From Mycobacterium sp. (lineage in GTDB: Bacteria; Actinomycetota; Actinomycetes; Mycobacteriales; Mycobacteriaceae), in the NCBI GenBank assembly GCA_023264755.1, contig JAHFVB010000032.1:1-16557 (forward strand): a DNA stretch of 16,557 bases, written 5' to 3'. The notes beneath the pieces are model-generated. The model searched no databases, was not told the origin of the DNA, and saw nothing but the letters and a program-made list of their open reading frames with translations. Below are positions 1,549 through 15,163 of the stretch, piece after piece. The first letter of the stretch is position 1. Every line of letters begins with the position of its first letter. A program made the position numbers and the translations under genes.

Positions 1549-1577
1549 GAGAATAACATTCTCATTAATGAAGTACC
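1549..1577 (+). promoter_or_regulatory. Operator-like motif, copy 1
   Basis: A perfect 6-3-6 inverted repeat, GAGAAT-AAC-ATTCTC (1549-1563), is followed by ATTAATGAAGTACC. It overlaps the likely -10 (TATTCT) of the minus-strand acyl-CoA dehydrogenase promoter, so a bound repressor would block that promoter. Copy 2 is at 1672-1700 and matches at 22 of 29 positions. A looser copy is at 15135-15163. The binding protein is unknown; the TetR regulator at 15275 is the only regulator in view. Confidence 0.6.
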
Positions 1578-1671
1578 GGTTCTCGGAATAATGCCATCGG
1601 ACTTTACCTCCCGGCCACCGTGCAACTGACCAGCACACACGCTCACCAGGGTCGACCCAGTCAAACTGGTG

Positions 1672-1700
1672 GAGAACAATGTTCTTGCTAATGAAGAACC
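1672..1700 (+). promoter_or_regulatory. Operator-like motif, copy 2
   Basis: GAGAAC-AAT-GTTCTT, containing a perfect AGAAC-N3-GTTCT inverted repeat at 1673-1685, is followed by GCTAATGAAGAACC. It has the same layout and orientation as copy 1. All but one of the seven differences between the copies are transitions. It covers the -35 region (TTGCTA at 1685-1690) of the plus-strand promoter with its -10 at 1707-1712, a classic position for repression. Confidence 0.6.
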
Positions 1701-1712
1701 AGGATCTACACT
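1685..1712 (+). promoter_or_regulatory. Candidate promoter of the amidohydrolase operon
   Basis: A TACACT hexamer (1707-1712) fits the mycobacterial TANNNT -10 pattern. It lies 16 bases downstream of TTGCTA (1685-1690), which could serve as a weak -35. Transcription would start near 1719, leaving a leader of about 80 bases that includes the 10-bp tandem repeat. Confidence 0.4.
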
Positions 1713-1748
1713 GGGGTTTGGTTCCGGCGGCGTCGTCGGCTGGAACCT

Positions 1749-1788
1749 AGACCTACCCAGACCCACCTAGACCTACCAAGACCTGAGG
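1749..1788 (+). repeat. 10-bp tandem repeat (4 units) in the amidohydrolase leader
   Basis: Four consecutive 10-bp units, AGACCTACCC, AGACCCACCT, AGACCTACCA and AGACCTGAGG, sit directly upstream of the start at 1798. The last unit contributes the GAGG of the probable ribosome-binding site. Copy number could vary by slippage. Confidence 0.8.
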
Positions 1789-1797
1789 ACGGATTCG

Positions 1798-2910
1798 GTG
1801 AGAGAACTTCGCGACGAGGCGGGCACCGGGTGGAACACCCCCGTCATCGACGCCAGCGTGCACATCTTCACCGAGTCCAACAAGGACCTCCGTCAGAACT
1901 TCATGCGGGAACCGTTCCGTAGTCGCGGCTTCCCCGACTACGAGATGGACTGGTACGGCGCCCCCGGCGGCGAGTACGTCCGGGGCAGCGAGGGACCCGA
2001 CCGGCAGTATCCGGGCTCCGATCCAGACCTGGTGGCCGAGGAACTGTTCACCAAGCGCGGCGTCGACATCGCGATCCTGCATCCGATGACGCGCGGCATC
2101 ATGCCGGACCGGCATCTGGGTACCGCCATCGCGGCGGCGCACAACGACATGATGGTGACGCGCTGGCTGGAGCATCCCGAGCACGGCGACAAGTTCCGCG
2201 GCACCATCCGGGTCAATCCCGACGACGTATCCGGCGCACTGCGGGAGCTCGAGAAGTACAAGGACCATCCGCGCGTCGTGCAGCTGGGCATCCCGTTGCA
2301 GTCGCGCGAGCTCTACGGCAAGCCGCAGTTCTGGCCGTTGTGGGACGCCGCCGCCGAAGCCGGGCTGCCGGTGGCAGTGCACATCGAGGTCGGCGCGGGA
2401 ATCGCCTTCCCGCCCACGCCGTCGGGTAAGACCCGCACCTACGAGCAGTACCTGTCCTTCATGTCGCTGAACTACCTCTATCACCTGATGAACATGATCG
2501 CCGAGGGTGTCTTCGAGCGGACCCCGGAGCTCAAGTTCGTCTGGGCCGACGGTGCGGCCGACATGCTGACACCGTTCATCTGGCGGATGGACTGCTTCGG
2601 GCGTCCACATCTGGAACAGACGCCGTGGGCCCCCAAGATGCCCAGCGCCTACCTACCCGGTCACGTCTACTTCGTCCAGGGCGGCTTCGACGGACCGGGT
2701 GACACCGAGTTCGCCGGCGAGTGGTTCGGCTTCACCGGCAAGGACGACATGACGATGTTCGGCTCGAGCTACCCGCACTGGGACTGCAACGAGCTGAACG
2801 TGCCCGCCAGCTACTCGACCGAACAGCGCGACAAGTTGTGCTGGCGCAATGCCGCCGAGCTGTACGGGATCGAAAGTCCAGTCATTCCGTCCGCCCTTGG
2901 GGCACAGTAA
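1798..2910 (+). CDS. Amidohydrolase-2 family protein, probably metal-ligand-deficient
   Basis: A 370-residue TIM-barrel protein of the amidohydrolase-2 family (COG2159; ACMSD-like decarboxylases and hydrolases). The GTG start follows GAGGA. Recognisable landmarks are VIDASVHIF near residue 20, PVAVHIEVG (His195) and the C-terminal FGSSYPHWD (321-329). In the family the metal is held by an (H/D)xH pair, a middle His and a C-terminal Asp. Here the first ligand is Ser20 rather than Asp or His, and the usual Asp of SDYPH is Ser324; only His22 and His195 remain. The next gene, separated by 20 bases, is a homologue that keeps all four. This protein may therefore be a non-catalytic partner subunit or may have altered chemistry (inference). 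It is the first gene of a plus-strand operon under the control region at 1517-1797. Confidence 0.88.
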   Translation: MRELRDEAGTGWNTPVIDASVHIFTESNKDLRQNFMREPFRSRGFPDYEMDWYGAPGGEYVRGSEGPDRQYPGSDPDLVAEELFTKRGVDIAILHPMTRGIMPDRHLGTAIAAAHNDMMVTRWLEHPEHGDKFRGTIRVNPDDVSGALRELEKYKDHPRVVQLGIPLQSRELYGKPQFWPLWDAAAEAGLPVAVHIEVGAGIAFPPTPSGKTRTYEQYLSFMSLNYLYHLMNMIAEGVFERTPELKFVWADGAADMLTPFIWRMDCFGRPHLEQTPWAPKMPSAYLPGHVYFVQGGFDGPGDTEFAGEWFGFTGKDDMTMFGSSYPHWDCNELNVPASYSTEQRDKLCWRNAAELYGIESPVIPSALGAQ

Positions 2911-2930
2911 GAGTTGGCGAGGAGGCCATC

Positions 2931-4073
2931 ATGACAGTGACAGCCAATCCACGAGTGCCCGCGGCCGAGCGCATCGCCGTGCGGTGCGTCGACTCCGACG
3001 TCCATCCCATGCCGCGCAGAGGCGAACTGGTCGGATACATCCCGGAGCCGTGGCGCAGCAAGTACTTCACCAACCACGCCGTCGGCGACCAGATCTACTA
3101 TGACGCGCCGGATTACGCACATTCGTACGCCATGCGAGTCGACAGCTTCCCGCCCGACGGTGAGTTCGCATGCAGCGACCCGGACATGGCCTTGCGGCAA
3201 CTCATCATGGAGGCGGGGTCCGACATCGCCATCCTGGAGCCCACTCACGGTGAGTCGCGACTGGCCGAGGCCACGTCGGCCTACTGCACGGCGACCAATT
3301 CCTGGCTGGCCAACCACTGGCTGGACGATCACAACAACTGGCATCAGCGGTGGCGCGGATCCATCTGCGTGGCGATCGAGGACCCGGTCGGCACCGTGGC
3401 CGAGATCGAGAAGTGGGCCGAGCACCCCTACATGGTGCAGATCCTGATCAAGGCGGAGCCACGCCCCTCCTGGGGTGACCCGAAGTACGATCCGATCTGG
3501 GCTGCGGCCACCAAGTACGACCTACCGATCAGCTGCCACCTGTCCCGCGGAGTCTACGAAACGCTGCCCATCCCGCCGGTCGGACTGCCGAGCTACAACC
3601 ACGACTTCATGGTCACCTATTCGTTGTTGGCGGCCAACCAGGTGATGAGCTTGATCTTCGATGGCACGTTCGACCGCCACCCCACCTTGAAGATCGTGTT
3701 CATCGAGCACGCGTTCACGTGGATCCTGCCCCTGATGTGGCGGATGGACTCCATCTACGCCAAGCGCAAGTCGTGGCTGGACATCAAGCGCAAGCCGTCG
3801 GAGTACGTCAAGGACCACATCAAGTTCACCACCCAGCCGTTGGACTACCCCGAGGACAAGACGGAGTTGACCCGCGCGTTCGAGTGGATGGAGTGCGACA
3901 AGATCCTGCTCTACAGCAGCGATTACCCGCACTGGACGTTCGACGATCCGCGCTGGCTGGTCAAGCACCTGCCCGAATACGCCCGGGAGAACATCATGTT
4001 CCGCAACGGCCTGGCCACCTACGGGCTGCCGGACACGGTGCCGGTGCTCGAGGGTCAGGTCCGGGTGTTCTGA
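2931..4073 (+). CDS. Amidohydrolase-2 family enzyme (metal ligands intact)
   Basis: A 380-residue ACMSD-like amidohydrolase-2 protein. The ATG at 2931 is chosen because GAGGAGG precedes it by an ideal distance; the open frame extends further upstream but overlaps the preceding gene. The full set of putative metal ligands is visible: Asp23 and His25 in VDSDVHP, His203 in SCHLSRG and Asp331 in SSDYPHW. Another candidate active-site residue is His260 in FIEHAFTW. Members decarboxylate, hydrate or hydrolyse small carboxylates and ring compounds, so the exact reaction is unknown. It is homologous to the preceding protein throughout (the WRMD and YPHW stretches align), suggesting an old duplication and perhaps a heteromer. 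A Rieske protein follows through a bridging mini-ORF. Confidence 0.9.
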   Translation: MTVTANPRVPAAERIAVRCVDSDVHPMPRRGELVGYIPEPWRSKYFTNHAVGDQIYYDAPDYAHSYAMRVDSFPPDGEFACSDPDMALRQLIMEAGSDIAILEPTHGESRLAEATSAYCTATNSWLANHWLDDHNNWHQRWRGSICVAIEDPVGTVAEIEKWAEHPYMVQILIKAEPRPSWGDPKYDPIWAAATKYDLPISCHLSRGVYETLPIPPVGLPSYNHDFMVTYSLLAANQVMSLIFDGTFDRHPTLKIVFIEHAFTWILPLMWRMDSIYAKRKSWLDIKRKPSEYVKDHIKFTTQPLDYPEDKTELTRAFEWMECDKILLYSSDYPHWTFDDPRWLVKHLPEYARENIMFRNGLATYGLPDTVPVLEGQVRVF

Positions 4074-4114
4074 TGCCGAGGGCAGGAACGAAGCGACCAG
4101 GGGATCCCCGCTAG
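4073..4114 (+). other. Bridging mini-ORF (13 codons, MPRAGTKRPGDPR)
   Basis: The ATG overlaps the amidohydrolase stop by one base (TGATG), and the TAG stop overlaps the GTG start of the Rieske gene by one base (TAGTG). A ribosome could pass through it without leaving the mRNA. It has no visible ribosome-binding site of its own. The peptide is short and basic and may be functionless; its value may be translational relay. Two other junctions in the window have a similar arrangement. Confidence 0.4.
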
Positions 4115-4506
4115 TGGCATCCGATCTCAACCCGCCCCGACTCGCTCAGGGGCGCGAGCACGTCGTCGCCACCGTCGACGAGATCCCTCCCGGCACACAC
4201 AAGTTGGTGCCCATCGGTAGGCACGGCGTCGGCGTCTACAACGTCAACGGCACCTTCTACGCCATTGCCAACTACTGCCCGCACGAGGGTGGCCCACTGT
4301 GTGCGGGTCGCGCGCGCGGTCGGAACGTCGTCGACGACGACGTGCCCGGGAACGCGGTGATGGTCCGCGATCAGGAGTTCATCTTCTGCCCTTGGCACCA
4401 ATGGGGATTCGAACTCGCGACCGGAACGACGGCGGTCAAGCCGGAGTGGAGCATCCGTACCTATCCCGTCCGAGTCGTCGGTACCGACGTACTCGTGATG
4501 GCCTGA
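4114..4506 (+). CDS. Small Rieske [2Fe-2S] ferredoxin-like protein
   Basis: A 130-residue Rieske-fold protein with the two cluster-binding loops Cys55-Pro-His57 (NYCPHEGGPLC) and Cys92-Pro-Trp-His95 (FCPWHQWGFEL). The 34 residues between His57 and Cys92 are about twice the spacing of ordinary Rieske ferredoxins (roughly 15-18), so the loop carries an insertion that includes acidic VVDDDVPGN and an extra Cys63. Such proteins carry electrons to oxygenases or act as accessory domains. No oxygenase alpha subunit is seen nearby, so the partner may be the amidohydrolases or an enzyme elsewhere. The GTG at 4114 is chosen because it overlaps the mini-ORF stop and gives a normal N-terminus. It lacks transmembrane segments and is therefore cytosolic. 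Confidence 0.9.
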   Translation: MASDLNPPRLAQGREHVVATVDEIPPGTHKLVPIGRHGVGVYNVNGTFYAIANYCPHEGGPLCAGRARGRNVVDDDVPGNAVMVRDQEFIFCPWHQWGFELATGTTAVKPEWSIRTYPVRVVGTDVLVMA

Positions 4507-4522: not shown

Positions 4523-5404
4523 TTGACTACGCCCACGGCACAGAAGATCGAAGTCAACGGCGGCAACGTCGTCTACGAAATCCTCGGCGATACCGGGGAT
4601 TTCATCGTGCTTACCCCGGGTGGGCGATTCAGCAAGGACATCCCCGGCCTCAGACCACTCGCCGCGGCGCTCGTCGAAGGCGGCTATCGGGTGCTGCTGT
4701 GGGACCGGCCGAACTGCGGAGCGTCGGACGTTCAGTTCTGGGGTCAGAGCGAATCCCACATGCGCGCCGAGACCCTGGCGCAGCTCGTCACCAAGCTTGA
4801 CATCGGGCCGTGCATCATCGCGGGAGGCTCTGGCGGAGCCAGGGATTCGATGATCACCGCGATTCTGCACCCCGAACTGGTCACCAAGCTGGTGGTGTGG
4901 AACATCGTCGGCGGGGTGTATGGCTCGTTCGTACTCGGCGGGCACTACATCGTGCCGAGCATCCTGGCGGTGCGCGGCCTGGGCATCAAGGGCCTGCTGA
5001 ACGTCGGCGAGTGGAAGGAGCGCATCGAAGCGAACCCGGCGAATCGCGAGCGCCTCCTGGCGCTCGACGCCGACGAGTTCCTGAAGGTCATGCTGCGCTG
5101 GCTCAATGCGTTCGTGTCCAAACCCGGCCAGACCATTCCCGGGGTCCCGGACGAGCAGTTCGACGAGATCAAGGTTCCGACCCTGATCATCCGCGGCGGT
5201 GAGAACGACTGGGACCATCCGAAGCGGACCTCCCTGGAGGTGAGCTGCCTGATCAAGGGTTCCGAGCTCATCGACCCGCCGTGGCCGGAGGACGCCTGGG
5301 AGCGCGCGGGCGAGAAGATGGCCGCGAGCGGCGGCAAGGACTTCTGCCTGTTCGACACCTGGGTCCAGGCTGCACCGCCGATCCTGGAATTCCTGGGCCG
5401 ATGA
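4523..5404 (+). CDS. Alpha/beta hydrolase-fold protein without obvious catalytic His
   Basis: A 293-residue alpha/beta hydrolase. The TTG start at 4523 follows GACGAGAGA; no better start lies nearby. The oxyanion-side segment is VLTPGGRFS instead of HGxxxS, then VLLWDRPNCGASD, the nucleophile elbow GGSGGARDS (Ser103), and LIIRGGENDWDHP with acid candidate Asp229. The usual C-terminal aGH motif is replaced by PPWPEDAW near residues 252-259, and no His occurs after His232, so the canonical triad looks incomplete. Possible roles are C-C bond hydrolase, esterase with relocated base, or cofactor-free oxygenase-like chemistry (inference). It ends the amidohydrolase/Rieske operon and converges on the 5410-5892 gene with only five bases between. 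Confidence 0.88.
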   Translation: MTTPTAQKIEVNGGNVVYEILGDTGDFIVLTPGGRFSKDIPGLRPLAAALVEGGYRVLLWDRPNCGASDVQFWGQSESHMRAETLAQLVTKLDIGPCIIAGGSGGARDSMITAILHPELVTKLVVWNIVGGVYGSFVLGGHYIVPSILAVRGLGIKGLLNVGEWKERIEANPANRERLLALDADEFLKVMLRWLNAFVSKPGQTIPGVPDEQFDEIKVPTLIIRGGENDWDHPKRTSLEVSCLIKGSELIDPPWPEDAWERAGEKMAASGGKDFCLFDTWVQAAPPILEFLGR

Positions 5405-5409: not shown

Positions 5410-5892
5410 TCAGCTTGGGCGAATGTGGACCTCGCAGTTCAGCGCCGCCTCCAGCGCGGTGTGCACGCGGCTCTCCGAGACTCGCGCCAGGTCGGCCTTG
5501 CGAAGCGTGACGTGGACGACGTCCCAGCCCTCGTCGCCCGCGACGCGTTCGACCTCGCCGTGCAGGCCCATCCCGGCCAGCACGCCGTACGCATCGTCGT
5601 CGGTACCCCTGCTCACGTAGGTCAGCACCCCGACCTCCGGTGTCACGCCGAACGCCCCGAAGGCCTTGGCGCACAACTGGACAGCCCGCCGCGAGAGCTC
5701 GTCCGGGTCGTCACCTGCGATCAGTACCTCGACCTGCCTGCGACTGCCGGGCAGGGCGGCCAGGTCGGCTTCGACGACCTCGGCTCCCGCCGTGGCGACC
5801 AAGTCCGCCAGCGCCGTCATGCCCTGCCCCAGTTGGGTGGCCGTGAGCCGGGCCGTCGGATCGACGTCTACCCGCACCACCGCAGTTCTCAT
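5410..5892 (-). CDS. Conserved-looking protein of unknown function (160 aa)
   Basis: I do not recognise the family. The 160-residue product has no membrane segment and no cysteine cluster; its only cysteines are in LCAKAFG and LNCEVHI. It alternates strand-like stretches (TAVVRVDVD, QVEVLIAGD, VGVLTYVS, WDVVHVTLR) with helices, suggesting a compact alpha/beta cytosolic protein. The ATG at 5892 has no ribosome-binding site, but TAGGCT (5900-5905, minus strand) sits seven bases upstream, which fits a leaderless mRNA. It is inverted relative to the operons on both sides. The reading-frame composition and regular amphipathic pattern argue that it is a real gene rather than an antisense shadow. 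Its presence here may reflect insertion between two catabolic modules. Confidence 0.72.
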   Translation of the reverse strand: MRTAVVRVDVDPTARLTATQLGQGMTALADLVATAGAEVVEADLAALPGSRRQVEVLIAGDDPDELSRRAVQLCAKAFGAFGVTPEVGVLTYVSRGTDDDAYGVLAGMGLHGEVERVAGDEGWDVVHVTLRKADLARVSESRVHTALEAALNCEVHIRPS

Positions 5893-5928: not shown

Positions 5929-7200
5929 ATGAAGACCACCGAGGCCGTGAAGATCGCCGCGTGGCCCGACCTCGCGCCGCGGCTGCTCCGGCTGACGCCC
6001 GGCGTCGAGGAGTACGCCGAGTATGCCAAGGCCGGCGGCTACCAGCCGCTCGACGATCCCGACCGGTTGCTCGCCGAGGTGGAGCGCAGCGGCCTACTCG
6101 GCCGCGGTGGAGCGGCGTTCCCGCTGGCCGTCAAGTTGCGCACCGTGCGCGACGGCGGAGTGGTCGGCGGGCCGGTGGTGCTGGCCAACGGGGAGGAAGG
6201 CGAGCCGGCGTCGGTCAAGGACAAGTGGTTGCTGCGCAACCGCCCGCACCTGGTGCTCGACGGGGTCCGGCTGGCCGCCCGCGTCGTCGGAGCCGCCCGC
6301 GCCGTCCTCTACGTGTCCGATTCCCTTGCCGCCGAAGCGCTTCACGTGGCGCTGGCTGCCGCCGAGCTCGAGCTCTCGATCGACGTCGTGACCGTCGATG
6401 CCGGCTACGTCGCAGGCGAGGAGACCGCGGCCGTCCGCGCGGTCAACGGCGGCCCGGCGAAGCCCACCGACAAGCCACCCCGCCCATTCCAGCGGGGCGT
6501 CGATGGCCGGCCCACCCTGGTGAGCAACGTCGAGACGTTGGCGAACCTGCCGCTGATCCTGCGCGGCGGGGCTGATGCGTTTCGCTCCGTCGGCACCCAG
6601 GCCTCTCCCGGAACGTTTCTGGCCACGATCACGGGAGCCGGCCGACCGCCAGCGCTCTACGAACTTCCCCACGGCGTCACGTTCGGGGAACTACTTGCCC
6701 TGCATGGCGTCTCGCCCGATGCGGTATGCGGCGCGCTGATGGGCGGCTACTTCGCGGGATTGCTCAACCGGGACGTGCTGAACGCCACGCTCGACCACGA
6801 GACGATGCGCGCGCTGGGCAGCGGGCTCGGATGCGGGGCGATCACGATCCTGACCGACGACTGTCCCGTCGCCGTCGCCGCGGCGGTGATGGCGTACTTC
6901 GACCGGGAAAACGCCGGCCAATGCGGGTCGTGCTTCAACGGCACGGCGGCCATGTCGGCAGTCACGTCGGCACTGCGAGACGGGATGGCCACCGCCGAGG
7001 ACGTCGGCCGGCTGCAGCGGTGGTCGGTGGTGCTTCGCGGCCGCGGCGCGTGCGCCACCCTCGACGCCGCGACGAACGTCGCCGCCAGCCTGCTGCGGCA
7101 ATACCCGGAACTGGTCGCCCGCCATCTGGACGGCGAGTGCGACACATGCCGTGCGGAGGCCTTCAGCGCGTTGCGGCCCTACGAGGTGGAGGCATCATGA
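5929..7200 (+). CDS. NuoF-like FMN/NADH oxidoreductase, stand-alone
   Basis: A 423-residue homologue of the 51-kDa NADH-binding subunit (NuoF/HoxF). The ATG follows AGGAAGGGG. Visible motifs, in order: GRGGAAFPLAVKL (59-70 region; NADH/FMN glycine-rich loop), NGEEGEP (87-93), VAGEETA (161-167), SNVETLAN (199-206), an SLBB-like segment, then the iron-sulphur region. The normal CxxCxxC...C cluster motif is reduced to Cys332-GS-Cys335-FN-Gly338...Cys375, so one ligand is missing, while Cys404 and Cys407 form an extra C-terminal pair (ECDTC). No other complex I or hydrogenase subunit is present. The stop overlaps the start of a 3Fe-4S ferredoxin (ATGA). The likely role is an NADH:ferredoxin reductase feeding the nearby P450s (inference from context). 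Confidence 0.9.
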   Translation: MKTTEAVKIAAWPDLAPRLLRLTPGVEEYAEYAKAGGYQPLDDPDRLLAEVERSGLLGRGGAAFPLAVKLRTVRDGGVVGGPVVLANGEEGEPASVKDKWLLRNRPHLVLDGVRLAARVVGAARAVLYVSDSLAAEALHVALAAAELELSIDVVTVDAGYVAGEETAAVRAVNGGPAKPTDKPPRPFQRGVDGRPTLVSNVETLANLPLILRGGADAFRSVGTQASPGTFLATITGAGRPPALYELPHGVTFGELLALHGVSPDAVCGALMGGYFAGLLNRDVLNATLDHETMRALGSGLGCGAITILTDDCPVAVAAAVMAYFDRENAGQCGSCFNGTAAMSAVTSALRDGMATAEDVGRLQRWSVVLRGRGACATLDAATNVAASLLRQYPELVARHLDGECDTCRAEAFSALRPYEVEAS

Positions 7201-7508
7201 ACGGTCCCATGAAGATTCGCTTGGACCGCACGATGTGCGACGGATTCGGCGTGTGCGCCAAGCACGCGCCCGGGTACTTCTCGCTCGACGACTGGGGCTA
7301 CGCGTCGTTGACTGGCGACGGCACCGTCGCGGCGGCCGACCACGACGCGGTGATGCGGGCGCTGCTGGACTGTCCGGTGCACGCGATCACGGAACTCGGC
7401 GAACACGGGCCGCTCGGCGACCGGGCCCCGGCCGTCAACGCGGAGGACTCGGCCGAGCCCGACCTCGTGACCGACCACAGCGAGGCCATCTCGGAATTCG
7501 TCCGATGA
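7197..7508 (+). CDS. 3Fe-4S ferredoxin with acidic C-terminal tail
   Basis: A 103-residue ferredoxin of the P450-associated single-cluster type. Cys14-DGFGV-Cys20 and Cys59-Pro give three ligands (CxxFxxC...CP). The position that would hold the fourth ligand in 4Fe-4S proteins is Phe17. The ATG at 7197 overlaps the NuoF-like stop, and its TGA overlaps the next start (ATGA). After residue 68 it carries a tail of about 35 residues rich in Asp and Glu (NAEDSAEPDLVTDHSEA), absent from the two shorter ferredoxins at 13055 and 13638, which could be a docking element. Direct coupling to the NuoF-like gene suggests that the two form an electron-transfer pair. Confidence 0.92.
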   Translation: MNGPMKIRLDRTMCDGFGVCAKHAPGYFSLDDWGYASLTGDGTVAAADHDAVMRALLDCPVHAITELGEHGPLGDRAPAVNAEDSAEPDLVTDHSEAISEFVR

Positions 7509-9151
7509 CCCGGCCGCTGCCGCAGCTCACCGCGCTCAACGAGTTCTTCTGGACGTCGGGCGCCGACGGCCAACTGCGCATCCAGGAGTGCCTCAGCTGC
7601 CAGGCGCTGATCCATCCACCCGCCCCGGTGTGCCGGTACTGTCGCGAACGCAAGATGGGCGTACGCGTCGTCTCCGGCCAAGCTACGCTGGCCGGCCTCT
7701 CGATCAACCACCGCTTCGGGTTTCCCGACCTTCCGCCGCCCTACGTGGTCGCCGAAGTCGCGATAGTCGAGGATCCGCGAGTTCGGTTGACCACCAACAT
7801 CGTCGAATGCGATCCGGACGAGCTAGCCCTCGGTCAGCCCGTCGAGGTGCTGTTCCAACACCACGGGGACGTCTGGCTGCCGGTGTTCAAGCCGGCCGCC
7901 GACGAGGACGCTCCCACCGCGATGCCGGAAGACCTGATCCCGCCGACGAAGTTCGCCGAGTACGTCCGGCCGATGCTGACCAAGGCGAAGTTCGAGGAAC
8001 ATTCGGCGATCACCGGCATCGGGATGTCGACCATCGGCCGTCGGCAGATGGTCCCACCGCTTTCCTTGACGCTTGACGCGTGCGAGCAGGCGGTCGCCGA
8101 CGCTGGACTGACGTGGGACGACATCGACGGGCTGTCCACCTACCCGGGGCTCGACATCATGGGCATGGGCGAGGGCGGGGTCAGCGCGCTGGAGGGTGCA
8201 CTGGGACTACGCCCGACGTGGATCAACGGCGGCATGGATACCTTCGGGCCGGGCGGCTCGGTGATCGCGGCGATGACGGCCGTGGCGACGGGCCTGGCCA
8301 AGCACGTGTTGTGCTTTCGCACGCTGTGGGAGGCCACGTTCGGGCAGTTGGTGAAGGAGGGCAAGATGTCTCCTCCGGGGGGCGCCCGCACCGCCAGCTT
8401 TCAGCATCCCTTTGGAGCCATCTCGGCCGCACACGTATTGGCGCAGAACGCCAGTCGGCACTTTCACCGGTACGGCACCACCCGCGAGACACTGGGCTGG
8501 ATCGCACTGAACCAACGGGCCAACGCCGCGCTCAACCCAACGGCGATCTACCGCGATCCGATGACGATGGACGACTACCTGTCGGCCCGCCTGATCACCA
8601 CGCCCTTCGGACTCTACGACTGCGACGTGCCCTGCGACGGCGCGGTCGCGGTCATCGTCTCCGCCATCGACGCCGCCCGCGACCTACCCAAGCCGCCGAT
8701 TCTGTTCGAGGCCGTCGGCACCCAGATCATCGAGCGCCTGGACTGGGACCAGACCACCCTGACCCACGAGCCCCAGGTGTTGGGCCAGAGCGCACACATG
8801 TGGTCACGAACGACGTTGCGACCCAAGGATGTCGACGTTGCCGAGCTCTACGACGGCTTCACCTTCAACTGCCTGTCGTGGTTGGAGGGGCTGGGCTTCT
8901 GCGGCATCGGCGAGGCAAAGGACTTCCTCGATGGCGGCCAGAACATCGCACGCGACGGCGTCATCCCCTTGAACACTCACGGCGGGCAACTGTCCCATGG
9001 CCGCACTCACGGCATGGGGCTGATTCACGAAGCCGTCACGCAGTTGCGCGGGGAAGCCGGAGCCCGCCAGGTCGCCAATGCTCGCACCGCGGTCACCAGC
9101 AGCGGCGGCCTGACCCCCAGCGGCGTCATGCTGCTGAGGCGCGACGCATGA
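7505..9151 (+). CDS. DUF35 (Zn-ribbon/OB-fold)-thiolase fusion, probable acyl-CoA retro-aldolase
   Basis: A 548-residue fusion. Residues 1-130 are a DUF35 domain: Cys29/Cys32 (CLSC) and Cys43/Cys46 (CRYC) form a zinc ribbon, followed by an OB fold (VSGQATLAGLSINH, PVEVLFQ). Residues about 165-548 are a SCP2/Ltp2-type thiolase fold: TLDACEQAVADAGL, DCDVPCDGA (372-379), AELYDGF with Tyr449, THGGQLSHGRTHGMG and QLRGEAGARQV. The region that normally holds the thiolase nucleophilic Cys reads GGMDTFGPGGS, and no Cys occurs between 193 and 270. In steroid degradation, the Ltp2 aldolase needs the DUF35 domain of a separate ChsH2 protein. Here both are one chain, suggesting retro-aldol cleavage of a beta-hydroxyacyl-CoA (inference). 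It overlaps its neighbours by ATGA on both sides. Confidence 0.9.
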   Translation: MTRPLPQLTALNEFFWTSGADGQLRIQECLSCQALIHPPAPVCRYCRERKMGVRVVSGQATLAGLSINHRFGFPDLPPPYVVAEVAIVEDPRVRLTTNIVECDPDELALGQPVEVLFQHHGDVWLPVFKPAADEDAPTAMPEDLIPPTKFAEYVRPMLTKAKFEEHSAITGIGMSTIGRRQMVPPLSLTLDACEQAVADAGLTWDDIDGLSTYPGLDIMGMGEGGVSALEGALGLRPTWINGGMDTFGPGGSVIAAMTAVATGLAKHVLCFRTLWEATFGQLVKEGKMSPPGGARTASFQHPFGAISAAHVLAQNASRHFHRYGTTRETLGWIALNQRANAALNPTAIYRDPMTMDDYLSARLITTPFGLYDCDVPCDGAVAVIVSAIDAARDLPKPPILFEAVGTQIIERLDWDQTTLTHEPQVLGQSAHMWSRTTLRPKDVDVAELYDGFTFNCLSWLEGLGFCGIGEAKDFLDGGQNIARDGVIPLNTHGGQLSHGRTHGMGLIHEAVTQLRGEAGARQVANARTAVTSSGGLTPSGVMLLRRDA

Positions 9152-10032
9152 GTTCCGAGCCACGTCGTCGCGTCGTCATGGTCGACGGCGTTCCGATGTC
9201 TGCCCTCGTCGCCGTGGCCGAGCAGCCGCGCGGCGGCATCGTCGCGGTCCACGGCGGTGCCACGTCGTCGACGTACTTCGACTGCCCGGGCCATCCGCGC
9301 TTGTCGTTGTTGCGCTTGGCTGCAACGCAGGGGTTCACGGCGATCGCCCTGGACCGGCCGGGGTACGGGGCTTCGGCCCTCTACGCCGACGAGCTCGACG
9401 ATCCCGATCGGCGGGCCGCGCTCGCGTACGCCGCGGTGGACAAGCTCCTCGCCGACGGACAGCGCGGCGCCGGACACGTCCTCGTCGCGCACTCGGCAGG
9501 TTGCGAGCTGGCGTTGCGGATGGCGGTGAGCAGCTGCAGCGCCGGCCTCCTTGGCCTCGAGTTGGCGGGTACCGGGCTGCGCTATCAAGCTGCGGCCCAG
9601 GCGGTGATCAGGGAGGCGACGACGACCCGCCGGCCAGCGGGGCTGCGGGACCTGCTCTGGCAGCCCACCGAGTTCTATCCGCCCGAGGTGCTCACCGGTG
9701 CGCTCTCGGCATCGGGGGTGGCCTACGAATCCGAGGTGACGGCGCACTGGGCCCGGCGGGACTTCCCCGAACTCGCCGCCCGGGTGACGGTGCCCGTCGA
9801 GTTCAGCGTCGCCGATCACGAAAGCGTCTGGGAGTCGACGCAGGAGGCGGTGGCCGCGATCACCGCACTGTTCGCCGCGGCGCCACGCGTGATCGTCAAC
9901 GAAGTGGCCGGCAGCGGTCACAACCTCAGCGTGGGGCTGACCGCCGAGACGTATCACCGAAAGGTGTTGGCGTTCATCGAGGAATGTATCGCCGCCCGAC
10001 AGGGGCTGACCAGTGAGGTGGAGGCAAGCTGA
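9148..10032 (+). CDS. Alpha/beta hydrolase with full catalytic triad
   Basis: A 294-residue alpha/beta hydrolase. It has the oxyanion-side VHGGATS (His35-Gly36), ALDRPGYGAS, nucleophile elbow AHSAG with Ser116, acid Asp223 in FSVADHESVW, and base His258 in GSGHNLS. The ATG at 9148 overlaps the DUF35-thiolase stop (ATGA); a longer open frame upstream is only the antisense-free shadow of that gene. Unlike the hydrolase at 4523, all three catalytic residues are visible, so this is a competent serine hydrolase, perhaps an esterase, lactonase or CoA thioesterase. No signal peptide is present. It lies between a putative aldolase and hydroxyacid dehydrogenases in one overlapping operon. Confidence 0.9.
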   Translation: MSSEPRRRVVMVDGVPMSALVAVAEQPRGGIVAVHGGATSSTYFDCPGHPRLSLLRLAATQGFTAIALDRPGYGASALYADELDDPDRRAALAYAAVDKLLADGQRGAGHVLVAHSAGCELALRMAVSSCSAGLLGLELAGTGLRYQAAAQAVIREATTTRRPAGLRDLLWQPTEFYPPEVLTGALSASGVAYESEVTAHWARRDFPELAARVTVPVEFSVADHESVWESTQEAVAAITALFAAAPRVIVNEVAGSGHNLSVGLTAETYHRKVLAFIEECIAARQGLTSEVEAS

Positions 10033-10850
10033 TGCGCGTCGGATTCATCGGGCTTGGCAGCCAGGGGGCGCCGATGGCGCGTCGCATCGTCGAGGGCGGC
10101 TTCGACGTCACCCTGTGGGCGCGTCGTCCGGCCTCGGTCGAGCCGTACGCCGATACCGCGGCCAAGGTCGCCGCGACCCCCGCCGAACTCGGCGCCGCAA
10201 GTGACCTGGTGTGCCTGTGCGTAGTCGGTGACGACGACGTACGGCAGGTACTCGAGGGTGAGGCTGGGGTGCTGGCCGGTATGAAACCCGGCGGAATCGT
10301 CGCCATCCATAGCACCGTGCACCCCGACACCTGTCGGGAGCTTGCCGAAATCGCTGCAGCACGGGGCATCGCCGTCATCGATGCCCCGGTGAGCGGCGGC
10401 GCTCCCGCAGTGGCGGAGGGCACCCTGATGGTCATGGTGGGCGGCGAGCCCACCGACGTCGAGAAGTGTCGACCGGTATTCGAGACGTACTCCGACGCGG
10501 TGGTCCACTTGGGCGCGCTCGGCAGTGGCCAGGTCGCCAAGATCCTGAACAACCTGTTGTTCACCGCCAATCTCGGCAGTGCGATGAGCACGCTCGAGTT
10601 GGGTGACGCGCTGGGCATCGCGCGCGACCGACTGTGTCAGGTGCTCAGCCGGGGGTCGGCGACCAGCAAGGCGGTCGGCAGCGTCGCGGTCTTCGGCGGC
10701 AGCCTGGACGGGCTTGCCCCGATTGCGGGCGGGCTGCTGCAGAAGGACGTGCGACACGCTGCGAGCCTCGCGGCCGATGCGTCGGCTCCCGAGGGCACGG
10801 TGTTCACGGTCGCGGATACGGCGCTGACGTTGATGGACCACGGGCGGTGA
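10032..10850 (+). CDS. NAD(P)-dependent beta-hydroxyacid dehydrogenase (HIBADH family)
   Basis: A 272-residue 3-hydroxyisobutyrate/6-phosphogluconate dehydrogenase-type protein. The Rossmann loop is GFIGLGSQGAPMA (GxGxxG at 7-12). The substrate-binding DAPVSGG lies at 117-123, and GSGQVAK gives the catalytic Lys170 followed by Asn174 in ILNN, all as in the family. Length is close to the usual 290. The start overlaps the previous stop by one base (TGATG). It oxidises beta-hydroxy acids (or reduces semialdehydes) with NAD(P); the substrate is unknown. A paralogue of almost equal length follows directly. Confidence 0.92.
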   Translation: MRVGFIGLGSQGAPMARRIVEGGFDVTLWARRPASVEPYADTAAKVAATPAELGAASDLVCLCVVGDDDVRQVLEGEAGVLAGMKPGGIVAIHSTVHPDTCRELAEIAAARGIAVIDAPVSGGAPAVAEGTLMVMVGGEPTDVEKCRPVFETYSDAVVHLGALGSGQVAKILNNLLFTANLGSAMSTLELGDALGIARDRLCQVLSRGSATSKAVGSVAVFGGSLDGLAPIAGGLLQKDVRHAASLAADASAPEGTVFTVADTALTLMDHGR

Positions 10851-10882
10851 TGAGCGCTTGCGCGAAGAACACAGTGAACTGA
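10850..10882 (+). other. Bridging mini-ORF MSACAKNTVN with 19-bp repeat, copy 1
   Basis: The ATG overlaps the stop of the preceding dehydrogenase (TGATG). The first 19 bases, ATGAGCGCTTGCGCGAAGA, recur identically at 12987 and 13017. The ten-codon frame ends with TGA at 10880-10882, inside the first codons of the next dehydrogenase. GCGCTTGCGC within it is a short inverted repeat. Its role is unknown; translational coupling or a dispersed repeat unit are the two readings. Confidence 0.45.
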
Positions 10883-11673
10883 CGAGCATCGGGTTCGTCG
10901 GGGCCGGCCGAATGGGCGCCCCGATGGTGAAGCGCCTCGTCGAAGGGGGCCACGACGTCGAGGTGGTGGGCCGCACCGACGAGAAGCGGTGCGCTGCAGC
11001 CGCGCTGGGGGCCAGGGCGGTAGCCGACGTCACCGACATCGCGCCCGACGCCGACGTGGTGATCGTCTGCGTCTTCACCGACGACCAGGTCAAGCAGCTG
11101 TGTCTGGACGGCCCGCTGGTCCACCGGATGCGTCCCGGGGCGGCACTCGTCGTGCACACCACCGGCAGCCCGCGCACCGTCCAGGCGATCGCGACCCGCT
11201 TCCCTCACGTCGACGTCATCGACGCCCCGGTCAGCGGCGGTCCACACGACATCGCCATGGGCGTGGTCACGTTGTTCGTCGGTGGTGACGAGCGGGCCGT
11301 GGCCCGGGTCCAACCCGTCCTAGGGGCGTACGGCGACCCGATCGTGCACGCGGGAGGCACTGGCTCGGGTCAGCTGGTGAAGCTGATCAACAATTCGATG
11401 TTCGCTGCGCAGGTCGGCCTGGTCGCGGAGGGGGTACGGCTCGGCGCTCGGCTTGGCATCGACGAGGGCCCGCTGCTCGGCGCGTTGACGCACGGCAGTG
11501 CCCAAAGCCGGGTGCTGAGCTTGATCGCGGGGGCGGGGTCCGCCGAGAAGTTCAGCTCCGCCGTCGGCGAGTTCGTCGGCAAGGACGTCGCAGTCGTCCG
11601 AAGAGTGGTCGCCGAACTGGGCGGTGAGCTCGGTGCCCTCGACGTGCTCATCAACGCAGGGATCCGAACCTGA
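10858..11673 (+). CDS. Second beta-hydroxyacid dehydrogenase (HIBADH family)
   Basis: A 271-residue paralogue of the preceding enzyme. It has Rossmann GFVGAGRMGAPM (GxGxxG at 15-20), TTGSP (101-105), DAPVSGG (122-128), and GSGQLVKLINN with catalytic Lys175. The conserved protein begins only at about residue 10 (TSIGFVGAG). TTG at 10858 is the only ATG/GTG/TTG candidate near the beginning. A CTG at 10879, giving MTSIGFVG, would overlap the mini-ORF stop as CTGA, so the true start is uncertain. Two different family members in tandem suggest either two successive oxidations or a heteromer. It is the last gene before the promoter region at 11674-11787. Confidence 0.88.
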   Translation: MREEHSELTSIGFVGAGRMGAPMVKRLVEGGHDVEVVGRTDEKRCAAAALGARAVADVTDIAPDADVVIVCVFTDDQVKQLCLDGPLVHRMRPGAALVVHTTGSPRTVQAIATRFPHVDVIDAPVSGGPHDIAMGVVTLFVGGDERAVARVQPVLGAYGDPIVHAGGTGSGQLVKLINNSMFAAQVGLVAEGVRLGARLGIDEGPLLGALTHGSAQSRVLSLIAGAGSAEKFSSAVGEFVGKDVAVVRRVVAELGGELGALDVLINAGIRT

Positions 11674-11787: not shown

Positions 11788-12990
11788 ATGACCACGCCGC
11801 AGGTCGTATTCAGCCCGGTGTCGCAGGAGTACTTCGAAAACCCCTACGAGGTGTACAAGCGGATGCGCGACGAGGCGCCGCTGTACTACGACGAGGGCGA
11901 GGACTTCTACGCGCTGACGCGGCACGAGGACGTGGCCGCGGCGTTCAAGGACCACGAGTCGTTCTCGTCGGCGCGCGGTTGCGACCTTGGGATGGTGCGC
12001 AGCGGTGAAGTGCCACAAAAGTCGATCATCTTCATGGACCCGCCCGATCACCGGCACATGCGCAGCCTGCTCAACAAGGCGTTCACGCCACGGGCCATCC
12101 AGTCGCAACGCGAGACCGTCGTCGAGTTGATCGACCACTACCTCGGCAAGGCCGATCCGGACCACTTCGACGTCGTGCAGGATTTCTCGGGCCCGTTCCC
12201 GGTCGAGGTCATCACTCGCATGGCCGGGGTGCCAGAGGAGTTCCGCCAGCAGGTGCGGCATTGGATCGACAAGAGCCTTCATCGCAAGCCTGGTCAGATC
12301 GATCTCGACGACGACAACATGCAGGCCAACATCGACTCCGGCATGTATTACTACGGCCTGGTGGTCGAGCGTAGGGCCAACCCTCAGGACGACATGATCA
12401 GCCGGCTGATCGCCGCCGAGATTCCCGATGAGCACGGCCACCTGCGCAAGCTCGACGACATCGAGATCACCGGCTTCACCACCCTGCTCGGTGGTGCCGG
12501 CGCCGAGACCGTCACCAAGCTCGTCGGCAGCGCGGTGGTCGAGTTCGCCCGTCATCCCGAGCAGTGGCAGAAGCTGCTCGACGACCGCAGCAAGATCCCG
12601 GCTGCGGTCGAGGAGCTGCTGCGCTGGGTCGGCCCGGTCCAATACAACGTGCGCTACAGCGTCAAGGACGTCGAGGTGCCCAGCGGCACCATCCCTGCGC
12701 ACAAGCCGGTCTTCTTGATGGGGGCCTCGGCCAACCGTGATCCGCGCGCCTTCACCGACGGCGAGACCTTCGACATCGACCGCGACCGCAGCGAGGCGCA
12801 GAACCTCGGACTCGGCTATGGCATTCACAGCTGTCTGGGCGCCGCGCTGGCTCGCATGGAGACCGCCATCGCACTCGAACGCCTGCTGGACTTCATGCCG
12901 CGCTACGAGGTGGACTTCGCCGGCCTGCAGCGCGTCAACATGCAAAACGTCGCTGGGTATCACCACGTGCCCGTGAAGGTTTTGCGATGA
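11788..12990 (+). CDS. Cytochrome P450 (400 aa) with atypical haem and I-helix motifs
   Basis: A soluble class I bacterial P450. The ATG at 11788 follows AAGGAGGAG; upstream in-frame codons lie in the promoter. Motifs: substrate-side MDPPDHRHMR (83-92), I-helix GGAGAETV (235-242), Glu276-Arg279 ExxR in EELLR, ANRDPRAF, and haem loop LGYGIHSCLGAALAR with Cys349. Two positions depart from the usual consensus: the haem-loop Phe is Leu342 (normally FGxGxHxCxG), and the residue after the I-helix Glu-Thr is Val242 rather than Thr or Ser. A ferredoxin gene follows after a mini-ORF. I cannot give a CYP family number. Substrate is unknown; by context probably a hydrophobic acid or its CoA ester. Confidence 0.95.
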   Translation: MTTPQVVFSPVSQEYFENPYEVYKRMRDEAPLYYDEGEDFYALTRHEDVAAAFKDHESFSSARGCDLGMVRSGEVPQKSIIFMDPPDHRHMRSLLNKAFTPRAIQSQRETVVELIDHYLGKADPDHFDVVQDFSGPFPVEVITRMAGVPEEFRQQVRHWIDKSLHRKPGQIDLDDDNMQANIDSGMYYYGLVVERRANPQDDMISRLIAAEIPDEHGHLRKLDDIEITGFTTLLGGAGAETVTKLVGSAVVEFARHPEQWQKLLDDRSKIPAAVEELLRWVGPVQYNVRYSVKDVEVPSGTIPAHKPVFLMGASANRDPRAFTDGETFDIDRDRSEAQNLGLGYGIHSCLGAALARMETAIALERLLDFMPRYEVDFAGLQRVNMQNVAGYHHVPVKVLR

Positions 12991-13054: not shown

Positions 13055-13255
13055 ATGACCCAGAAGATCGTGGTCGACTTCGGCCTCTGCGAGAGCAACG
13101 GGGTGTGCATGGGCATCATCCCCGAAGTGTTCGACTTGGACGACCAGGACTACCTGCACGTGCTGTCCGACGAGGTGACTCCCGAGAACGAACAGCAGCT
13201 CAAGGAGGCCGTGCGGCAATGCCCGCGCCAGGCCATTTCCATCGTCGACGAGTGA
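13055..13255 (+). CDS. 3Fe-4S ferredoxin paired with the P450
   Basis: A 66-residue ferredoxin of the usual P450-partner size. Cys12-ESNGV-Cys18 and Cys56-Pro provide three cluster ligands, with Asn15 in the variable position. The PEVFDLDDQDY segment is typical of the group. ATG at 13055 is preferred because GAGGTG precedes it closely and the protein then has standard length; the frame stays open upstream through the repeat. It lies directly behind the 400-residue P450 and is its probable electron donor. It is the last gene of the plus-strand run. Confidence 0.93.
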   Translation: MTQKIVVDFGLCESNGVCMGIIPEVFDLDDQDYLHVLSDEVTPENEQQLKEAVRQCPRQAISIVDE

Positions 13256-13295
13256 CGAACTACTAGCGCCCCGAACCCCGTGGGCCGCAGCGCGT

Positions 13296-13313
13296 CCGAA
13301 CCCGTTGGGTCGG
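13296..13313. terminator. Possible bidirectional hairpin between convergent genes
   Basis: CCGAACCC and GGGTCGG flank GTT, forming a seven-pair G+C stem with one bulged A. The site sits in the 65-bp gap between the convergent ferredoxin (ends 13255) and the DUF1330 gene (ends 13321). There is no T tract, so it is only a candidate. A related CCGAACCCCGTGGG occurs at 13271-13284. Confidence 0.35.
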
Positions 13314-13320
13314 GTCCGGG

Positions 13321-13605
13321 TCAGAAGCCGGAGACGATGACCCCGTTGCAGTCAGCGGCCGCCTGACGCAGCTTCGCTGCCGCCTGATACTCGTCGGAGT
13401 AGTACCACTGCTTGGCCGCGTCGACGGATTCGAATTCCAGGAGCACCGTCTGGGTGCCGTGCCACGCCCCCTCGATCGTCTCGACCGCCGGGCCGAACGA
13501 CAGCACCTTCGCGGCGCCCATCGTCTGACTGGCCAGCTTGCCGTACTCGGCCATGCCGGCCGGGTCGGTGACGTCCTCGGTGAGGATCACATATCCCTTG
13601 GCCAC
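13321..13605 (-). CDS. DUF1330 family protein (94 aa)
   Basis: A small protein typical in length of the DUF1330 family, which adopts a dimeric ferredoxin-like alpha/beta-barrel fold. Features include MAKGYVILTEDVTDP at the N-terminus, FGPAVETIEGAWHGTQTVLLEFESVDAAKQWYYSDEY (from about residue 38), and the closing RQAAADCNGVIVSGF. The GTG start at 13605 follows AGGGAG. The frame is open upstream, but the homology-like region begins here. The family has no firmly established reaction; related dimeric folds bind small hydrophobic ligands or act as monooxygenases or isomerases. It lies 32 bases downstream of a ferredoxin and is the last gene of the minus-strand P450 operon. Confidence 0.85.
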   Translation of the reverse strand: MAKGYVILTEDVTDPAGMAEYGKLASQTMGAAKVLSFGPAVETIEGAWHGTQTVLLEFESVDAAKQWYYSDEYQAAAKLRQAAADCNGVIVSGF

Positions 13606-13637
13606 GTTGAATCTCCCTGTCGGTTGCGCGGATGGAA

Positions 13638-13826
13638 TCAAACCTGGTGGATCGCCTGCTCGGGGCAATTCGCGATGGCCTCGGCGACGGCACCCTCGAA
13701 TTCGGGAGGCACCTGTTCGGGATCGGCTACCGCCCAGCCGTCGTCCGTCATCGCGAACACCTCGGGACAGAACGTGAGGCACATGCCATGCCCGCGGCAG
13801 CGGTCGTCGTCGACTCGGACCTTCAT
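13638..13826 (-). CDS. 3Fe-4S ferredoxin with His in the variable ligand position
   Basis: A 62-residue ferredoxin with Cys10-RGHGM-Cys16 and Cys54-Pro as cluster ligands and His13 in the variable position (CxxHxxC...CP). An additional Cys20 lies just after the motif in CLTFCPEVF. The ATG at 13826 overlaps the stop of the upstream P450 (ATGA), which makes it the evident electron donor of that P450. Of the three single-cluster ferredoxins in the window this one has the shortest chain and no tail. Confidence 0.94.
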   Translation of the reverse strand: MKVRVDDDRCRGHGMCLTFCPEVFAMTDDGWAVADPEQVPPEFEGAVAEAIANCPEQAIHQV

Positions 13827-15106
13827 CGAACGTCGAACTCCAGGTGCAGCTCGGTGAGCCCGCGCAGGATGAAGGTCGGGATGTAGCGGTAGTCGCGCTG
13901 ACCCGCCGGACCGTGTTTGCGCTCGGAGATCCGGATGTCGGTGGTGCGGTCGAGCAGCCGTTCCAGGCCGACGCGGGTCTCCGCTCGGGCCAGCGGCGCC
14001 CCTGGGCAACTGTGGATGCCCCGGCCGAAGGCGAGGTGCTGGCGAGCATTCTTGCGCGTGGGGTCGAAGTCGTCGGGCGCCTCGAACCGGCGCGGGTCGC
14101 GGTTGGCGGCCCCGTTGAGCACCATGACGGTGGTACCCGCACCGAGCCGGTGGTCGCCGACGGTCACCGGGGTGCGCGACAGCCGGAAGTCACCCTTGAC
14201 CGGACTCTCGTGGCGCAGTGCCTCCTCGATGAAGTTCGGCAGCAGACTGCGGTCCTCGCGCACCATCTTCTGGATGTCGGGGCGGTCGCCGAGCACCTTC
14301 ACCGCGGTGCCGAGCAGCCGAACCGTCGTCTCCTGGCCCGCGGAGAACACGTTGGTGGCGACCCGCGCGACGTCACCGGGGCTCGGTGACGTTCCGTCGG
14401 GGAACAGCGCGGTGGCCAAGCCGGTGAGGATGTCGTCGCGGGGATTGTTCCGGCGAGCCTGCACGTACTCCTCGAACTGCCCATAGAGGAATTCCAGCGG
14501 AGAGTGCGACAGCGACTCCTTGCTGGTGCTGCCGACTCCGCCGCCGGAGTATTGGGAGATGCCGTCGACGAAGGCGTTGCGGTCCTCCGGGGGGATGCCC
14601 AGCAGGTCGGCGATCACCAGCAGCGTGAACGGGCTTGCGAAGCCCTTGATGAATTCGGCCTGGCCGCCGGCGAGAAAGTCGTCGAGCACCTCGTCGGCGA
14701 GCTGCCACATCGCGTCCTCGTTCTCCTTGAGCCGCTTCGGCGTGATCAGCCGCATCATCAGGGAGCGATGGTTGGTGTGGACGGGGGGATCCAAGGTCGG
14801 CAGCTGGTCGCTGAACGGCAGTTCGTCGCGGTGCTGCTCGATCAGTTCGGTGACGTCACCGTCCTCCAAGCCCTCGAAGGACACGGGGAAGCCGGGGAAC
14901 GGCCCGGTTACCGAAAGGCATGACGAGAACGTCTGCTCGTCGTTGTAGACGGCGACGGCCTCTTCCCAGCCGGTGACCATCGTGACGCCGTAGTGGTCCT
15001 CGCGTTCGACGGGGCACTTGTCGCGCAGCGCATTGAAGTACGGATACGGATCGGCGACCAATCGCGGGTCCCTGAACCAGTCGATGCCGGCGGGGTCGAT
15101 CGCCAT
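13823..15106 (-). CDS. Cytochrome P450 (427 aa) with canonical motifs
   Basis: A soluble class I P450 on the minus strand. ATG at 15106 follows GGATGGAGTG. The landmarks are LDPPVHTNHR (105-113), I-helix SAGQETTVR with Ala256-Thr261, ExxR Glu295-Arg298 in EEALR, ANRDPRRF, and haem loop FGRGIHSCPGAPLAR with Cys367, all as expected. It is only distantly similar to the P450 at 11788. It heads an operon with its own ferredoxin and a DUF1330 protein. The gene diverges from the TetR regulator across a 168-bp control region that carries a copy of the operator-like motif, so it is likely regulated with the fadE and amidohydrolase operons (inference). I cannot assign a CYP number or substrate. Confidence 0.96.
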   Translation of the reverse strand: MAIDPAGIDWFRDPRLVADPYPYFNALRDKCPVEREDHYGVTMVTGWEEAVAVYNDEQTFSSCLSVTGPFPGFPVSFEGLEDGDVTELIEQHRDELPFSDQLPTLDPPVHTNHRSLMMRLITPKRLKENEDAMWQLADEVLDDFLAGGQAEFIKGFASPFTLLVIADLLGIPPEDRNAFVDGISQYSGGGVGSTSKESLSHSPLEFLYGQFEEYVQARRNNPRDDILTGLATALFPDGTSPSPGDVARVATNVFSAGQETTVRLLGTAVKVLGDRPDIQKMVREDRSLLPNFIEEALRHESPVKGDFRLSRTPVTVGDHRLGAGTTVMVLNGAANRDPRRFEAPDDFDPTRKNARQHLAFGRGIHSCPGAPLARAETRVGLERLLDRTTDIRISERKHGPAGQRDYRYIPTFILRGLTELHLEFDVR

Positions 15107-15134
15107 GTGTCACTCCATCCCGGTGGGGTGGCGC

Positions 15135-15163
15135 GAGAATGCCACTCTCATTGTTGAGTATTA
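15135..15163 (+). promoter_or_regulatory. Operator-like motif, copy 3 (looser)
   Basis: GAGAAT-GCC-ACTCTC (15135-15149) differs from the perfect palindrome at 1549 by one arm base plus two spacer bases. It is followed by ATTGTTGAG, which parallels ATTAATGAA at copy 1. It lies 28 bases upstream of the P450 start at 15106, in the divergent region shared with the TetR gene. Confidence 0.5.

Follow-up and report, generated by a model that had tools for sequence, protein, structure and literature searches.

Three operator-like sites in a 16,557-nucleotide stretch of Mycobacterium sp. DNA (contig JAHFVB010000032.1 of GenBank assembly GCA_023264755.1; this whole stretch is referred to here as the window) are, as judged from sequence, members of a conserved motif family that is also found directly upstream of a second TetR-type gene, on another contig of the same genome. 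The product of this second gene, designated TetR-B (G000:C337:7049-7774), and not that of the TetR gene present in the window itself (TetR-A, at 15275), is very probably the repressor that binds the three sites. The idea, put forward in an initial annotation, that the fadE pair, the amidohydrolase operon and the P450-ferredoxin operon of the window form one regulon is supported, because the sites recur upstream of the orthologous operons. The three sites are as follows.

1549-1563, operator copy 1, GAGAAT-AAC-ATTCTC, a perfect dyad with the top score in the window, which recurs upstream of amidohydrolase orthologues
1672-1686, operator copy 2, GAGAAC-AAT-GTTCTT, a match to the pattern at 123 base pairs (bp) from copy 1, conserved in orthologues
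15135-15149, operator copy 3, GAGAAT-GCC-ACTCTC, with one mismatch and the third-best score in the window, upstream of cytochrome P450 no. 2

These GAGAAY-N3-RTTCTC-type sites start at 1549 and 1672 (no mismatches to GAGAAYNNNRTTCTY) and at 15135 (one mismatch), where the initial annotation had placed them, and its figure of 22 identical positions out of 29 for copies 1 and 2 was reproduced (18 for copies 1 and 3, and 13 for copies 2 and 3). All copies are found, as also claimed there, in divergent control regions: copies 1 and 2 between fadE (open reading frame start at 1516, minus strand) and the amidohydrolase gene (1798, plus strand), and copy 3 between the P450 gene (15106, minus strand) and TetR-A (15275, plus strand). 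A scoring matrix trained on other genomes only, from 252 unique 21-mers fitting the consensus, ranked the three sites first to third in the window, with scores of 30.6, 22.8 and 18.8 compared to 2.5 for the fourth-best match, and a score of 18.8 was reached in none of 300 dinucleotide shuffles of the window. Since the three copies are the top three motif matches and no shuffle equalled the weakest of them, they are not attributable to chance. With the bare pattern at up to two mismatches the excess was weaker (10 strand hits against 3.7 expected, with 4 of 200 shuffles reaching 10). Two-mismatch matches at 1694, 3987 and 10884 were taken as chance or as part of copy 2; those at 3987 and 10884 are intragenic, with scores far below those of the three sites. 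A plasmid search with window positions 1500-1800 gave no match.

TetR-B contains a TetR_N domain (PF00440, expectation value (E) 6.5e-08, 32.7 bits for a cut-off of 24); its PDB relatives were distant TetR proteins only, giving no functional lead. It was detected, at E up to 1e-40, in 95 of the 118 Mycobacterium genomes sampled, in all of which we also counted exact GAGAAYN3RTTCTC sites. Genomes with TetR-B had a median of 9 sites, with at least five in 91 of the 95, whereas the 23 genomes without it had a median of 0 and a maximum of 2, and none of them reached five (p = 1.9e-13, kinship not being corrected for). The reversed pattern, used as a control over the 118 genomes, gave no site in 104 of them, one in 13 and two in one. 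The four TetR-B genomes with fewer than five sites were G033 (one site), G063 (two), G070 (one) and G096 (none): the site at TetR-B has two mismatches in G033 and G096 and is exact in G063, there is no exact TetR-B site in G070, and G063, G070 and G096 had no amidohydrolase match. We read these cases as decay, because the operon, the operator or both have been lost. Surviving TetR-B genes with decayed operators or absent target operons are illustrated by loci L208, L209, L210 and L211.

The motif is likewise retained at the promoter of TetR-B itself. GAGAAT-N3-ATTCTC was present upstream of TetR-B in 30 of 30 loci of the genus (the best 30 matches, own genome included), directly followed by TACAAT in 27 of them. 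At E up to 1e-30, TetR-B was found in 33 of 151 genomes of the family, spread over 8 of 31 genera, and in other genera the exact motif preceded it in 19 of 20 loci, from six genera. This operator of TetR-B, a predicted auto-operator, is therefore one conserved over evolution. Against this background, it is very unlikely that the motif is bound by some other regulator merely co-occurring with TetR-B. Co-occurrence cannot single out one gene within a co-inherited island, which favours such an alternative, but the 23 mycobacterial genomes devoid of TetR-B have hardly any copies of the motif, the motif persists at the promoter of TetR-B across genera, and in G063 an exact site precedes TetR-B even though that genome has no amidohydrolase match.

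Some TetR-B loci showed additional features. Downstream of the dyad, at a distance of about two turns, an [A/G]TCTC element is seen repeatedly at the TetR-B promoters of other genera (L217-L237); it could represent a second half-site or belong to the start region. In G010, three sites (two with one mismatch and one exact) lie within approximately 75 bp (L144:3540-3613), between TetR-B and the following genes for a P450 and a short-chain dehydrogenase/reductase (SDR); similar arrays are present in L124, L134 and L135. Several genomes carry two TetR-B copies, and the paralogue in G029 (C1:838822-839526, at the end of L197 and the start of L198), 75% identical, is located in another gene cluster.

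The initial annotation had named TetR-A as the regulator of all three sites, and two features of the window concern this gene.

15275-15949, plus strand, TetR-A, the local TetR (PF00440, 55.5 bits), predicted not to read the GAGAAY sites
15229-15249, dyad TAGTTTGAC-N4-GTCAACTA, conserved in TetR-A relatives, predicted auto-operator of TetR-A

Its position speaks for TetR-A, given that it is divergent to the P450 gene, with its start 126 bp from the end of copy 3, and that TetR repressors often bind beside their own gene; moreover, TetR-A was found only in genomes having both TetR-B and at least five sites (39 of 39). This proposal nevertheless did not stand, and we consider it improbable. TetR-A is present in only 39 of the 118 genomes of the genus, all of which also have TetR-B, whereas the 56 genomes with TetR-B and without TetR-A still show a median of 9 sites, with at least five in 52 of them. 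TetR-A also has a different conserved dyad of its own: TAGTTnGAC-N4-GTCAACTA, at up to three mismatches, was found within 150 bp upstream of TetR-A in 75 of 80 loci, compared to 0 of 1600 mononucleotide-shuffled regions (the loci are the best 80 of 94, named Mycobacterium, Mycolicibacterium or Mycobacteriaceae, with L104-L106 being only 57-59% identical). In contrast, a GAGAA site at up to one mismatch was found within 300 bp in only 14 of these 80 loci. The dyad matches without mismatches at 15229-15249 of the window, where the sole other match has three, and in 21 genomes it occurred three times at up to one mismatch, each time at most 60 bp from a TetR-A match; the fourth TetR-A genome among those 21, G005, had no dyad at this threshold. 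Where TetR-A and the P450 gene are far apart, each retains its own motif: in G010 and G012 an exact GAGAAT site starts 60 and 46 bp, respectively, before a gene for a CYP150-like P450, and TetR-A is situated approximately 20 kilobases (kb) from that gene, together with its own dyad. Through the dyad at 15229-15249, TetR-A would regulate itself and the following acyl-CoA dehydrogenase gene, and possibly the divergent P450 gene.

The recurrence of the TetR-B motif was followed at orthologous promoters, a check suggested in the initial annotation, which bore out the proposed regulon. Genes for the amidohydrolase, the first enzyme of the island, were present in 92 of the 118 mycobacterial genomes. 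At amidohydrolase promoters, copies 1 and 2 are both kept in 27 of 29 loci, with a spacing of 121-124 bp (123 in the window), the exact copy 1 being missing in L156 and L173. These values come from an anchor-free count; an earlier, anchor-based count of 30 amidohydrolase loci had given 23 exact sites, 25 at up to one mismatch and five site-less loci, of which at least one (L175, G029) actually has both sites. Orthologues of the P450, defined as being at least 60% identical, are contained in 39 of the 80 TetR-A loci, and 33 of these 39 have a GAGAAY site at up to one mismatch within 200 bp, which is exact in nine. Beyond the 15-bp dyads, the following elements were recognized.

1685-1712, plus strand, predicted promoter of the amidohydrolase operon, from geometry and conserved columns: -35 TTGCTA (1685-1690), a 16-bp spacer and -10 TACACT (1707-1712)
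1693-1699, third half-site of copy 2, GAAGAAC, giving a second, wider dyad GTTCTT-N7-AAGAAC, kept in orthologues
1580-1584, TTCTC, distal half-site of copy 1, roughly two helical turns downstream and conserved in orthologues at an offset of 31-35 from the motif start
15154-15174, tail of copy 3 (TTGAGTATTACATTTCCACAG), frequent in P450 orthologues

The claim that the tail outside the palindrome is conserved as well held for copy 2 only. There, the TAATGAAG-type tail is kept across orthologues and contains both the predicted -35 box and the third half-site; the wider dyad is conserved as RTTCTT-N7-AAGAAY, with the predicted -35 box at its centre, and copy 2 overlaps this predicted -35 box. In copy 1 the TAATGAAG-type tail is not conserved, the TTCTC at 1580-1584 being conserved instead, and we therefore rejected the whole 29-mer, including that tail, as a conserved unit. 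The tail of copy 3, around ATTTCC, differs from the others and is present at the best-scoring site of 14 of the 39 P450 orthologues when counted without selection; an alignment of copy 3 is weaker evidence in this respect, since its rows, which include two from the Rieske-side promoters of G010 and G012, were chosen by that same ATTTCC tail. The conserved part of the operator thus goes beyond the bare dyad, but the extra part varies by promoter. From the pattern of conservation, the extra half-sites would perhaps provide a second dimer contact.

A further AAGAAT-N3-ATTCTC site was observed approximately 130 bp upstream of the P450 gene in L078, L085, L086, L088-L090, L092, L093, L096, L098-L100 and L103, and many of the promoters with this site also have a one-mismatch proximal site.

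In the window genome as a whole, a draft of 4.75 megabases that is 70% complete, the exact sites number six, compared to none for the reversed control pattern. Besides those at 1549 and 1672, they are G000:C337:7831, 56 bp upstream of TetR-B; C337:13749, flanked by a Rieske oxygenase operon and another PF04909 gene; C419:1277, preceding an acyl-CoA synthetase gene; and C424:7247, near an aldehyde dehydrogenase operon whose gene starts are uncertain. A mycofactocin-coupled SDR is encoded near TetR-B (TIGR03971, 392.6 bits for a cut-off of 300). G029 has a single block of approximately 25 kb that comprises the fadE pair, the amidohydrolase operon and its two sites, the P450s, the Rieske operon and TetR-B; four control regions of this block carry sites (some of them inside over-called gene starts), and TetR-A is absent.

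A number of observations weigh against TetR-B as the common repressor of these operons. Related species are not independent for the purpose of co-occurrence, and the site count is also tied to the presence of the operons. TetR-B is on another contig, and its distance from the window was deduced from G010, G012 and G029. The mean number of sites was 9.59 in genomes with TetR-A and 8.39 in those with TetR-B only (p = 0.007), the four decayed genomes being part of this difference. G033 retains both the operon and TetR-B, yet has no site at up to two mismatches in the approximately 320 bp before the amidohydrolase gene; one of the 20 TetR-B loci from other genera has only a two-mismatch site; and no site at up to one mismatch was found just upstream of the TetR-B paralogue of G029. 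With regard to the P450 gene, copy 3 itself has one mismatch, a CTCTC half replaces TTCTC, as in copy 3, in at least 13 of the 39 orthologues, the remaining six orthologues reach only two mismatches, and the best site of some lies 130-154 bp upstream; for these reasons, the P450 may be controlled weakly or to a varying degree.

Two described steroid-related systems were considered as well. KstR (Rv3574) is a TetR repressor of lipid and cholesterol genes with TAGAAC-N2-GTTCTA sites (PMC1995591). It resembles the TetR-B regulon in that a short dyad stands both at the promoter of the regulator and at numerous scattered catabolic operons, in many cases between divergent genes, and one intergenic region of its regulon also holds two copies (PMC1995591). 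Motif X is a palindrome found before 14 operons that encode P450s and dehydrogenases; phytosterol induces 12 of these operons more than threefold, and the motif was assigned to G155_05115, the Rv0767c orthologue (PMC6593523); this too is a predicted TetR regulon of P450-containing catabolic operons, probably autoregulated. The idea that the GAGAAY motif belongs to KstR or to the Rv0767c-type TetR of the CYP51 cluster, and hence to a described steroid regulon, draws on the resemblance of the KstR sites to AGAAC/GTTCT (PMC1995591) and on the position of motif X before mostly phytosterol-induced P450 and dehydrogenase operons (PMC6593523).

Both regulators are nonetheless unlikely to act at the GAGAAY sites, and we give this explanation very little weight. 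The KstR dyad, TnnAACnnGTTnnA, has a 2-bp spacer, whereas the sites described here read GAGAAY-N3-RTTCTY, with a third half-site at some promoters, and serve another gene set; TetR-B gave no match to the NCBIfam KstR model at E up to 0.001, and TetR-A reached 19.5 bits for a cut-off of 280. The CYP51-adjacent TetR of G012 is not TetR-B (22% identity over 85 residues, E 0.46), no GAGAAY site at up to one mismatch was found in the stretches of the CYP51 locus examined in G012 and in the window genome, and this TetR has its own dyad, TGGACA-TG-TGTCCA, near its start (L206:7502-7515 and L207:5030-5043), as a candidate operator. The CYP51 locus was located by an I-helix motif, and its TetR is presumably the Rv0767c counterpart, as judged from gene order. 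The distinction from the motif X regulon was drawn at the level of the protein and of the locus, where both the TetR and the dyad differ. Operators of conserved mycobacterial TetRs were predicted by the same logic by Balhana et al. 2015 (PMC4482099), whose Table 2 covers M. tuberculosis genes, with logos given as images. Among open-licence papers, searched by motif letters and by gene combination, no description of a GAGAAY/TetR-B regulon was found.

According to the mechanism we favour, TetR-B would bind the 15-bp dyads as dimers, with a possible additional, weaker contact at the third half-site, and would occupy the -35 region in front of the amidohydrolase operon as well as a promoter-proximal segment at the genes for the P450 and TetR-B; as a consequence, we propose, RNA polymerase would be blocked. 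A pathway intermediate, perhaps an acyl-CoA, would release TetR-B, whereupon the fadE pair, the amidohydrolase-fold monooxygenase operon, the P450-ferredoxin operon, the Rieske oxygenase operon and TetR-B would be switched on together. With somewhat better than even confidence, we extend this to a broader view: TetR-B, which occurs in roughly four fifths of the sampled Mycobacterium genomes and in another seven genera of the family, would act as master repressor of a second catabolic regulon of the KstR-like kind. At the core of this regulon would stand a heteromeric dinuclear monooxygenase of the AibH1H2 type, accompanied by a NuoF-type reductase, two P450s (one of them CYP150-type), a Rieske oxygenase and a mycofactocin-coupled dehydrogenase; at the main operon, TetR-B would recognize an operator of three half-sites in which the -35 box is embedded. 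This would provide a regulator, an operator and a set of targets, all open to testing, for a catabolic island common in mycobacteria, and with the repressor identified, its inducer, and hence the substrate, becomes searchable. If true, this would also mean that a defined genetic switch controls an AibH1H2-like "amidohydrolase" monooxygenase. A more general lesson is that an operator is not necessarily read by the TetR encoded closest to it.

The genes of the window, other than TetR-A, are listed below.

3-617, minus strand, second acyl-CoA dehydrogenase (Pfam PF02771/PF02770), running off the window, start codon approximate
524-1516, minus strand, acyl-CoA dehydrogenase, fadE (Pfam PF00441), divergent to the amidohydrolase operon
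1798-2910, plus strand, amidohydrolase-fold subunit 1, AibH1-like (PF04909; PDB 8sm7, 3e-47; 6m1w_B, 2e-28)
2931-4073, plus strand, amidohydrolase-fold subunit 2, AibH2-like, start codon inferred (PF04909; PDB 8sm7, 1e-57; 6m1w_B, 4.5e-51)
4114-4506, plus strand, small Rieske ferredoxin (PF00355)
4523-5404, plus strand, alpha/beta hydrolase
5410-5892, minus strand, opposite-strand gene inside the amidohydrolase operon, with no Pfam match
5929-7200, plus strand, NuoF-like reductase of the FMN/4Fe-4S type (PF01512, PF10589)
7197-7505, plus strand, 4Fe-4S-type ferredoxin (PF13459)
7505-9151, plus strand, OB-fold and thiolase-like fusion
10032-11673, plus strand, two 3-hydroxyisobutyrate-dehydrogenase-like genes (10032-10850 and 10858-11673)
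11788-12990, plus strand, cytochrome P450 no. 1, start codon approximate
13321-13617, minus strand, DUF1330 protein, downstream of the ferredoxin
13638-13826, minus strand, 4Fe-4S-type ferredoxin
13823-15106, minus strand, cytochrome P450 no. 2, CYP150A6-like (PDB 6dcd, 5e-150), downstream of copy 3
15983-16555, plus strand, acyl-CoA dehydrogenase following TetR-A, running off the window

With regard to enzyme chemistry, the "amidohydrolase" pair together with the Rieske ferredoxin (1798-4506) looks like a monooxygenase of the AibH1H2/ARO type, and not like a hydrolase. Both amidohydrolase-fold subunits match the AibH1H2 monooxygenase (6m1w_B) and structures 8sm6-8sm9, whose proteins were named amidohydrolase-related dinuclear oxygenases (AROs; PMC10811679), and the ARO hallmark, PF04909 proteins encoded beside a small Rieske protein, is likewise found in the window. 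At the level of sequence motifs, subunit 2 contains VDSDVH, CHLSR, IEHAF and YSSDYPH, candidates for the metal-binding residues of AibH2/SfbO, and subunit 1 reads FGSSYPH in place of YSSDYPH; this difference would be consistent with a division into a structural and a catalytic subunit, as in AibH1H2. The AibH1H2-AibG-AibF system (PMC7782822) has the same order of two PF04909 proteins followed by a small Rieske ferredoxin, but its reductase is of the 322-residue AibF type, whereas that of the window is NuoF-like.

In M. marinum, CYP190A3 and CYP150A5 are tabulated with small ferredoxins at Mmar_4730-4736 (PMC6237146), and P450 no. 2 of the window, with its CYP150A6 match, similarly sits with small ferredoxins; that paper, in contrast, concerns electron transfer. 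Lastly, the opposite-strand gene at 5410-5892 is kept in place and orientation in G012, G029 and G033.

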